Shown here: positions 11,179 through 13,064 of the stretch, in pieces
How the letters are laid out: the number at the start of each line of letters is the position of its first letter
Position numbering within the stretch: the first letter of the stretch is position 1
Origin: Leucobacter insecticola
GTDB lineage: Bacteria > Actinomycetota > Actinomycetes > Actinomycetales > Microbacteriaceae
Length of the DNA stretch: 64,000 nucleotides
Direction of reading: 5' to 3'
Assembly (NCBI RefSeq): GCF_011382965.1
Contig: NZ_CP049934.1
Location: 2,108,001 to 2,172,000, forward strand
Program-made: the position numbers and the translations under genes
The notes under the pieces: model-generated
Told to the model about the DNA's origin: nothing
Databases searched by the model: none
The model's input: the letters and a program-made list of their open reading frames with translations, nothing else

Positions 11179-12936
11179 CTAGGCGTTCACTGTCTCGCGG
11201 ACACGATTGCGGACCGCACGGTTCACCGAGCTAATGATGGCTTTGAGCGTGGCACGGCTCGTGTCAGGATCGATTCCGACCCCCCACAGGCGCTGACCAT
11301 CAACCTCAAGATCGACATAGGAGGCCGCGACCGCGTCACCGCCCGAGCTCATCGCGTGCTCGACATAGTCAAATAGCGTGACCGAGTGACCGGCCTCGTT
11401 CAGTGCGTTCAGGAACGCGTCCACGGGCCCGTTGCCTCGCGAGGTGGACTGCGCCTCATCATCGCCAACCCGATAGTCGACGACGAGTTCGGTGACGCCG
11501 TCGCCCGCGCTCGTTGAAGACGTCCGGAAGATTTCGTAGCGGCCCCAGCGTTCAGCGTCGCCGCCATTCACCGGCAGGTACTCATCCTGGAAGATCCGCC
11601 AGATCTCATCGCTCGAAACCTCGCCACCCTCGGAGTCGGTGACCCCCTGAACGACTGAACTGAACTCGATCTGCAGACGACGCGGCAGATCGAGGTTGTG
11701 GTCGGTCTTGAGCAGATATGCGACACCACCCTTACCCGATTGCGAGTTCACGCGGATCACGGCCTCGTATGAGCGGCCCAGATCTTTCGGGTCGACCGGC
11801 AGATACGGCACGGCCCACTCGAGGTCGTCCACACCGACCCCGGCGGCAGCCGCATCCTGCTCCATGCGCTCAAAGCCCTTTTTGATGGCGTCCTGGTGCG
11901 AGCCAGAAAAGGCGGTGTACACCAGGTCGCCGGCCCAGGGGCTGCGCTCCGGAACACGCAACTGGTTGCAGTATTCCGCAGTGCGACGCACCTCGTCGAG
12001 GCGCGAGAAGTCAATCTGCGGGTCGATCCCCTGCGTAAACATATTGATGCCCAGCGCGACGAGGTCGACGTTGCCGGTGCGCTCGCCGTTACCGAACAGG
12101 CAGCCCTCGATGCGATCCGCGCCCGCCAGGTAGCCCAGCTCGGCCGCCGCCACGGCGGTGCCGCGATCGTTGTGCGGGTGCAAGGAGATAAGCACGTTCT
12201 CGCGGTGGTTGAGATTGCGCCCCATCCACTCGATCGAGTCGGCGTACACGTTTGGGGTGGCCATCTCAACGGTTGCGGGGAGATTCAGGATGACCTTGCG
12301 GTCTGGCGTCGGCTTGAAGATCTCCAGTACCGCGTTGCACACCTCTGCAGCGTATTCCAGCTCGGTGCCAGTGTAGGACTCCGGCGAGTACTCGTAGAAA
12401 ATGTCGGTGCCCGCGCAGATGGATTCGCTCGCGACGCAGAGCTTCGCGCCCTCGATCGCGATCTGCTTGATGCCCTCGCGATCCTGACGGAACACGACGT
12501 CGCGCTGCAGAATACTCGTCGAGTTGTAGAGGTGCACAATCGCCTGCTTCGCACCGATCAGCGACTCGTAGGTGCGCTTGATGAGGTGGTCACGGGCCTG
12601 GGTGAGAACCTGAATGGTGACGTCGTCGGGGATCGCGTTATCTTCGATGAGGTGACGCACAAAGTCAAAGTCGGTCTGACTCGCGGACGGGAAGCCAACT
12701 TCGATTTCTTTATAGCCCATCTTGACGAGCAGATCGAACATGATCCGCTTGCGTTCCGGACTCATCGGATCAATGAGGGCCTGGTTGCCGTCGCGGAGAT
12801 CAACGGCACACCAGCGCGGGGCTTCGGTGATCCGCTTACTCGGCCAGGTGCGATCCGGCAGATCCACGTTGATGATCTCGTGGAACGGACGGTAGCGGTG
12901 AATCGGCATACCGGAGGGCTGTTGCGTGTTCTTCAT
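11179..12936 (-). CDS. leuA: 2-isopropylmalate synthase
   Basis: LeuA, 585 residues, condenses 2-ketoisovalerate with acetyl-CoA in the first committed step of leucine synthesis. The catalytic TIM barrel shows [18 protein letters not shown] near residue 40 and the metal site [18 protein letters not shown]. This is the long (type II) actinobacterial form with an N-terminal extension. The C-terminal LeuA regulatory (dimer, leucine-binding) domain is recognisable around [19 protein letters not shown] and [16 protein letters not shown] at 12936 has CGAGGAAG upstream; that ribosome-binding region can be masked by the leader RNA described separately. It stands where ruvC would be expected. Confidence 0.97.
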
Positions 12937-12944
12937 GGGCTCGT

Positions 12945-13022
12945 CTTCCTCGTTTACAACTCTTGCTCAGCCAAACACAAACACCGCGACGAGGAAGGCC
13001 TGGAAATTAGGCCCCGTCGCGG
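12945..13022 (-). promoter_or_regulatory. leuA leader RNA with alternative hairpins
   Basis: On the minus strand CCGCGACG...GGCCT (plus 13015-13022 and 13009-13013) pairs with AGGCC...CGTCGCGG (12997-13001 and 12984-12991), forming a strong hairpin. The overlapping segment CTTCCTCG (12990-12997) is also the exact complement of CGAGGAAG (12945-12952), the leuA ribosome-binding region. The two pairings are mutually exclusive. The first arm is embedded in the last codons of the leader peptide, so ribosome position decides which structure forms. This is the layout of leucine-responsive translational attenuation. Confidence 0.75.
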
Positions 13023-13051
13023 CAGCTAAGGAGAAGCGAGCCGAACAGCAT
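13007..13051 (-). CDS. leuL: leuA leader peptide (14 residues, four Leu)
   Basis: A short frame reading MLFGSLLLSCRDGA and stopping at TAA. Four of its fourteen codons are leucine (CTG, CTT, CTC, CTT), with three in a row. It lies 70 bp upstream of leuA. There is no ribosome-binding site; a TATAGT -10 hexamer ends 7 bp before the ATG, so the mRNA probably starts at or near the A of ATG, and translation would be leaderless. Leu-rich leader peptides before leuA are known in actinobacteria. Stalling on the Leu codons would leave the CCGCGACGGGGCC segment, which encodes the end of the peptide, free to fold. Confidence 0.75.
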   Translation of the reverse strand: MLFGSLLLSCRDGA

Positions 13052-13058
13052 GGCACCC

Positions 13059-13064
13059 ACTATA
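13059..13064 (-). promoter_or_regulatory. -10 element of the leuA leader transcript
   Basis: TATAGT on the minus strand overlaps the rskA stop codon and ends seven bases before the leader-peptide ATG. No good -35 hexamer is visible at the standard distance. Its position makes a leaderless leader-peptide mRNA likely. Confidence 0.55.

Follow-up and report, generated by a model that had tools for sequence, protein, structure and literature searches.

A probable leucine-responsive translational attenuator, of the LEU element type, before leuA in Leucobacter insecticola

The leuA leader of Leucobacter insecticola, found in a 64,000-nucleotide stretch of its genome (here called the window), is probably a LEU element that acts as a leucine-responsive translational attenuator. 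Seliverstov et al. (2005, PMC1262725) described the element before leuA in most Actinobacteria and, apart from leuA, reported it in one transposase gene. In the mechanism proposed here, the transcript would be leaderless, with its 5' end at the ATG of a leader ORF of 14 codons or right beside it. With leucyl-tRNA in good supply, ribosomes would pass the Leu codon run and reach the stop codon, which lies in the loop of a hairpin, P1. Lying directly behind that ribosome, or in RNA that carries none, the run (CUUCUCCUU) would then pair with the Shine-Dalgarno (SD) region of leuA and shut the gene; in L. insecticola the 3' arm of P1 (CUUCCUCG), once released, could shut it too. When leucyl-tRNA is short, a ribosome would stall on the run and cover the mask, allowing leuA to be translated; for a stall at either of the first two Leu codons, P1 would remain mostly formed.

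Features of the leuA leader and of a second element in the same genome
Feature	Position	Strand	Remark or basis
Extended -10-like box TGC-TATAGT	13059..13067	-	TATAGT at 13059-13064, 7 nt upstream of the leader ATG
Leader ORF leuL, peptide MLFGSLLLSCRDGA then stop, 14 codons	13007..13051	-	Probably leaderless
Leu codon run CTT-CTC-CTT	13028..13036	-	Proposed sensor and anti-Shine-Dalgarno strand; codon usage, SD pairing
Stem P1 5' arm CCGCGACGGG, within the last leader-ORF codons	13013..13022	-	Covariation
Stem P1 3' arm CTCGTCGCGG	12984..12993	-	Covariation
CTTCCTCG, complementary to the leuA ribosome site; proposed second, subsidiary mask	12990..12997	-	Complementarity, folds
Pseudoknot loop strand CAGGCC	12997..13002	-	Own above swapped pairing in relatives; in the window, local pairing with GGCCT (13009-13013) also possible
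Pseudoknot downstream strand GGCTGA	12967..12972	-	Read from sequences and best-helix lists; best window helix found there is another one
leuA ribosome-binding region CGAGGAAGACGAGCC	12938..12952	-	Pairs with Leu run and preceding bases (from 13042 down), one bulged A
leuA, 2-isopropylmalate synthase, TIGR00970 type, 585 aa	11179..12936	-	840.7 bits against a cut-off of 697.4
Second LEU element, before leuC (L196)	G000:C1:2219901-2219993, outside the window		R1 match

The leader ORF opens with an ATG at 13051 on the minus strand, ends with a TAA at 13007-13009 and holds four Leu codons, CTG, CTT, CTC and CTT. A 14-codon peptide with four Leu codons had been claimed by an earlier, sequence-only reading of this DNA, which also placed CTTCCTCG (12990-12997) and CGAGGAAG (12945-12952, within the leuA ribosome region) correctly. 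The closest LeuA relatives, among the best 80 of 592, are those of other Leucobacter, at 87-90% identity. A simple scan of 12850-13150 gave no full sigma-70 -35/-10 promoter-like site (0.1 expected), and against Rfam 15 nothing reached the gathering score, the single match (E 2.3) being at chance level and on the opposite strand. The -10-like hexamer (13059-13064) contains the stop codon of rskA (13060-13062), an anti-sigma gene; as the two overlap, transcripts reading through from rskA would not be leaderless. Upstream of the leader, 13060-17046 holds rskA, a sigK-like ECF sigma gene and, beyond these, ORFs that we take to resemble a thioredoxin fusion of the DipZ type and a lipoprotein with a fasciclin domain, presumably an arrangement like the mycobacterial SigK locus.

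Comparison of sequences shows the leader ORF, the Leu run with an unusual choice of codons, P1 and, among relatives, a pseudoknot. Two sets of leuA loci were used: 81 close loci (the window and 80 named loci, the best 80 of 592 relatives) and a class set of 100 hand-chosen loci from other families of the class. Among the 80 titles, 76 name Microbacteriaceae or genera that we take to belong there, and four are metagenome-assembled genomes titled otherwise. An ORF with a Leu run is present in 81/81 close loci, with TANNNT upstream in each, and in 99 of the 100 class loci; for seven of the 81 a TTG start was first picked, and a GTG lies one codon earlier. A stricter rule (ATG or GTG start, LLL, and TANNNT 5-9 nt upstream) was passed by 79 of the 81 close and 82 of the 100 class loci, against 0 and 1 on the reverse strand and means of 0.05 and 0.15 in shuffled sequences of the 81 and 100 loci. 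TANNNT lies 5-9 nt before the ORF start in 81/81 close and 81/98 class leaders, and the extended form TGnTAnnnT in 68/81 and 35/98. The earlier suggestion of a leaderless peptide is probably sound: the part of PMC8079986 available reports a leaderless leuA leader in S. lividans, and the same peptide, MRFGLLLLSCRGEGL, is encoded at a class locus (L143).

Leader anatomy was measured in 179 of the 181 loci; L091 (no P1 by rule) and L169 (no LLL leader by rule) were dropped, although the covariance model R1, described below, still finds the element in both genomes. LLL is present in 177 of the 179. The last Leu codon is CTT in 166, CTC in 13 and CTG in none, while in 80 leuA genes CTG makes up 55% and CTT 2.2% of 3540 Leu codons; selection therefore seems to act on the base sequence and not just on the amino acid. 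The run lies at least 6 codons from the stop in 173/179 leaders and 5 nt from P1 in 129/179, spacings that fit a run set free when the ribosome arrives at the stop codon.

P1 (CCGCGACGGG/CTCGTCGCGG) forms in the lowest-energy fold predicted for this leader, the whole 141-nt fold being unexceptional (z -1.60; 14 of 200 shuffles as good). In an alignment of 64 hand-chosen leader sequences, P1 is paired in 99.8% of cells, and 51 cells carry double changes, compared with a shuffled mean of 11 (0/500 shuffles reach 51); the count of pair types alone is unexceptional (94/500). The hairpin that the sequence-only reading had drawn over the last codons thus stands as P1. Its GGCCT/AGGCC part was rejected, since this local extension reaches at least 4 bp in 39/81 leaders and in a mean of 42.7 after swapping of partners. 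The AGGCC strand in relatives pairs downstream instead, as a second helix in which the P1 loop forms a pseudoknot with a strand downstream of P1. Own pairing exceeds swapped pairing in 54/81 close leaders (p 5e-5) and 74/98 class leaders (p 1.5e-9), and the mean helix score lies above all 60 random swaps in both sets (kinship is ignored in these comparisons); the share of helices of at least 6 bp does so in the class set only. CTAAGCC/GGCTTAG, TCAGGC/GCCTGA and GACCGGC/GCCGGTC are examples from relatives. The window's own pseudoknot pairing is short, weak and no better than swapped. The post-Leu strand CTTAGCTG gave no own-versus-swapped signal with the downstream strand (p 0.9).

The Leu run pairs with the leuA SD region. 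In the window this duplex comprises 11 pairs and one bulged A (GGCUCG/CGAGCC and CUUC/GAAG) and also appears in the minimum-energy fold, where P1 is nested on it as a base stem. Its energy is special, being equalled in 3 of 37 window genes, a count that includes leuA. Own pairing exceeds swapped in 51/81 (p 2e-4) and 59/98 leaders (p 0.005), kinship again being ignored, and at least 6 contiguous Watson-Crick pairs are found in 43/81, compared with 15% when window SDs are substituted.

SD access in each ribosome state was computed from pseudoknot-free folds of leaders that were either free or had the bases under a ribosome held unpaired, with an assumed footprint of -18 to +12 around the A site. 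For the window, predicted access is 0.28 in free RNA, 0.76, 0.74 and 0.66 with each of the three Leu codons of the run in the A site, and 0.03 at the stop codon. These folds support the first suggestion for this leader, that the place of the ribosome may act as a translational switch. Such a gain from stalling is uncommon among chimeras that carry the start regions of 36 other window genes: these gain a mean of 0.09 over free RNA and 0.13 over the stop state, and the window's 0.46 and 0.71 are reached by 2/36 and 1/36, respectively. A smaller footprint gives the same picture; with a larger one, predicted access on the last Leu codon falls to 0.29.

Over the 179 leaders, the predicted effects of stalling are modest on average, depend on the footprint and fail in some close relatives. 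Mean SD access is 0.26 free, 0.38-0.43 stalled and 0.29 at the stop, and pairing of the SD with the Leu run falls from 0.39 in free RNA to 0.23 at the stop. Counting changes above 0.1, access with the ribosome on the penultimate Leu codon is up in 86/179 leaders and down in 15 relative to free RNA, and up in 83 and down in 23 relative to the stop state; the up and down counts become 102 and 10 with a smaller footprint, and 67 and 29 with a larger one. P1 is predicted to be largely open (mean 0.14) when the A site lies on the final Leu codon. Among seven Leucobacter leaders, the SD is still masked in two on the penultimate Leu codon (L002, L004) and in four on the last (L002, L004, L005, L007). 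The claim that a stall frees leuA is accordingly borne out by the model for the window and not for all its nearest relatives.

The sequence-only reading had gone further, taking CTTCCTCG in the 3' arm of P1 as the only mask of the SD, kept away when P1 forms during a stall. The complementarity on which it was built is real: the arm matches the leuA SD exactly over 9 nt, where the best among 36 other window genes is 8, and in the folds it pairs with the SD at 0.78 in the stop state, or 1.00 with the smaller footprint, so that masking after completion of the peptide is predicted with two of the three footprints. Own pairing exceeds swapped in 50/81 (p 0.011) and 61/98 leaders (p 0.005; kinship ignored), with at least 6 contiguous Watson-Crick pairs in 36/81 against 17% with window SDs. 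However, the predicted mask of free RNA is the Leu run (0.62) and not the arm (0.00), and with the larger footprint the stop-state mask also returns to the run (0.57 against 0.02 for the arm). The duplex energy of arm and SD is not special (11 of 37 window genes, leuA included, are as good), at least 7 contiguous pairs occur in just 13/81, and none of the six other Leucobacter loci has the exact 8-mer CGAGGAAG in its SD region. Across the 179 leaders the arm pairs with the SD at 0.03 free, 0.16 at the stop and 0.23 when the last Leu codon occupies the A site, and would therefore mask the SD during that stall even more than after it. In 21 leuC leaders its predicted contribution is small (0.00 free, 0.03 at the stop, 0.11 on the last Leu codon; this mean includes one row with a mis-assigned start, L196, and leaves out the leuC locus L222). 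An arm that acts as sole mask is thus unlikely, and the folds suggest instead that it is the second of two masks in this species. Its masking during stalls, like the missing full promoter match, counts against the translational attenuator itself.

Elements of this kind are found beyond leuA. The covariance model R1 was built from the same 64 leuA leaders as the P1 alignment; as these came mostly from class-sample genomes, leuA matches there are largely by construction. In its own genome L. insecticola has, besides leuA, one strong match (E 3e-8; the next has 0.33), before leuC. This element has TAGACT upstream, a leader encoding MRRRQQLLPSRDGV and then a stop, and P1; in the model CTTCTT masks the SD, with predicted access of 0.33 free, 0.52-0.66 stalled and 0.29 at the stop. 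At E 0.01, 58 of 60 family genomes have at least one match and 45 at least two. Forty loci from 17 family genomes lie before leuA (17), a leuA paralogue at 53-55% identity (5), leuC (16) or nothing recognised (2). In the class sample 144 of 148 genomes have a match, and 20 hand-picked extra matches, from the L. insecticola genome and 19 others, lie before leuC (6), upstream of leuB (8), before leuA paralogues of 49-53% identity (3) and before leuA of a short type (3; L210, L211 and L212, the one tested being TIGR00973). The three genomes with short-type leuA match the long type weakly; the element thus seems to be tied to the pathway and not to one gene lineage. Two weak matches (L229, L255) were set aside, as they match no reference leucine protein and look like chance hits within coding sequence. 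Outside the class, 15 sampled genomes have a match, 14 of them at E 6.5e-4 or weaker; a strong one (G246:C191:4069-4163, L195; E 2.6e-10) comes from another class of the same phylum.

The eight leaders on the leuB side have different codons. All contain Ile, seven contain Val and none contains LLL, with P1 kept (MQWSVRILSCRGGAR, MARQLVILSSRGEFR and MRSVFVLIDCRGEA are examples); a single Ile is found in 2/25 leuA and 3/22 leuC leaders, and Val in 10/25 and 5/22. Of 20 genomes from one family, 9 have one match each to a VRIL-type pattern (reversed control 0), five of the nine being already among the eight leuB-side loci. In 9/9 the leader is followed by a conserved ORF of 27-32 codons (about 30 aa) with the motif QEAxDRRDNGG, three versions of which have no Pfam match. 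leuB is downstream on the same strand in seven, on the other strand in one and not within the fetched stretch in one; the direct target of the variant may therefore be the small ORF, and not leuB. QEAMDRRDNGG-like small ORFs of 26-32 codons follow leaders of the Val/Ile/Leu type at L203-L205, L207-L209 and L256-L264, several from the same genomes, usually with leuB beyond.

Two further explanations bear on how the element works. In 2005, classical attenuation was thought unlikely owing to S. coelicolor mutants, and binding of a regulatory protein was proposed (orthologues of M. leprae ML1624; PMC1262725), which would make the leader peptide incidental. The mutations concerned (Craster 1999, cited in PMC1262725) are said in one place to have some effect, though not one that fits classical attenuation, and in another passage of that paper to have no influence on regulation; as cited, they also count against a translational attenuator. 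High conservation of the P1 sequence would suit a bound protein as well. A protein site needs no reading frame, however, and here the frame, the start and the -10 spacing are kept, as are the Leu codons at leuA and leuC. Near leuB the codons become Val, Ile and Leu while P1 stays, a change expected from ribosome sensing but not from a simple site for a bound protein, which favours the former. We therefore regard control mainly by a bound protein as very unlikely.

Control at transcription, in which P1 or Rho would end the transcript unless ribosomes or structure prevented it, has precedent in the terminators at actinobacterial ilvB leaders (PMC1262725) and in C. glutamicum leuL, which the accessible part of a review calls transcriptional attenuation (PMC8709942). 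A simple scan of 12850-13150, however, shows no terminator-like site (0.1 expected), in agreement with the earlier claim that this leader has none, and P1 was rejected as a terminator on the same result; S. lividans leuL1 is likewise reported, in the portion of PMC8079986 seen, to have no typical terminator. Transcriptional control is for these reasons improbable, although Rho may still play a part. A ribosome-protected uORF upstream of leuA in M. abscessus, reported in the accessible part of PMC4974804, counts in favour of the translational attenuator. If sensor and mask are the same bases, mutations in the codons would alter both, which could explain the 'paradoxical' 1999 S. coelicolor leuA mutants. 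For the window leader, leucine-responsive translational attenuation accordingly remains the reading we prefer.

In classical trp and leu attenuators, the stalling of a ribosome on end-product codons decides which RNA fold forms. The window leader differs from these in that no terminator was found there, and the decision would be whether an SD is exposed or hidden. For mycobacteria, leaderless polycysteine ORFs were reportedly described by Canestrari in 2020. As far as can be judged from parts of two papers that treat them (PMC9031893, PMC13236596), these too are leaderless short ORFs with codons for the end product, and attenuation acts on translation of downstream genes; their amino acid is cysteine, not leucine, and the likeness considered here is one of ORF and attenuation. 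The parts seen of PMC8709942 and PMC8079986 place a Leu-run leader before leuA in C. glutamicum (leuL) and S. lividans (LeuL1). LeuL1 further resembles the window leader, as read here, in being leaderless and without a typical terminator, while leuL is spoken of as transcriptional, unlike the reading given here.

The closest counterpart is the LEU element of PMC1262725 (which also covers the trp type of attenuator). It shares with the window leader its place before leuA in an actinobacterium, a leader ORF with a Leu run, no described terminator, a base stem between the Leu run and the leuA SD (11 pairs and one bulge in the window) and, as far as a comparison by text description can tell, an alternative hairpin on the same base stem, where P1 is nested. 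The pseudoknot of the element is supported in the family and class sets, whereas the window's own pairing is short and no better than swapped. The present set differs in that it also includes leuC, leuA paralogues, short-type leuA and the Val/Ile/Leu variant, and in that the window species has the extra 3'-arm mask. The elements before leuCD, leuA paralogues and short-type leuA, and the Val/Ile/Leu variant, are apparently new: in the literature searched, which was mostly outside subscription papers and in which 'leuC' also matched 'leucine', no element was described before leuC, short-type leuA or the small ORF.

More tentatively, and at somewhat less than an even chance, these elements may form a class-wide family of leaderless translational attenuators in which the sensor codons double as the anti-Shine-Dalgarno strand, serving leuA of two kinds, leuA paralogues and leuCD, and re-tuned to Val-x-Ile-Leu before the ORF of about 30 aa near leuB. 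The 2005 work did not settle how the LEU element operates, and the comparison provides a specific, testable case for ribosome sensing. It names candidate bases that would act as sensor and mask at once, and extends the known range of the element to leuCD and a version tuned to Val, Ile and Leu. If this is true, leucine synthesis throughout the class would be set by stalled leaderless ribosomes and not by a terminator.
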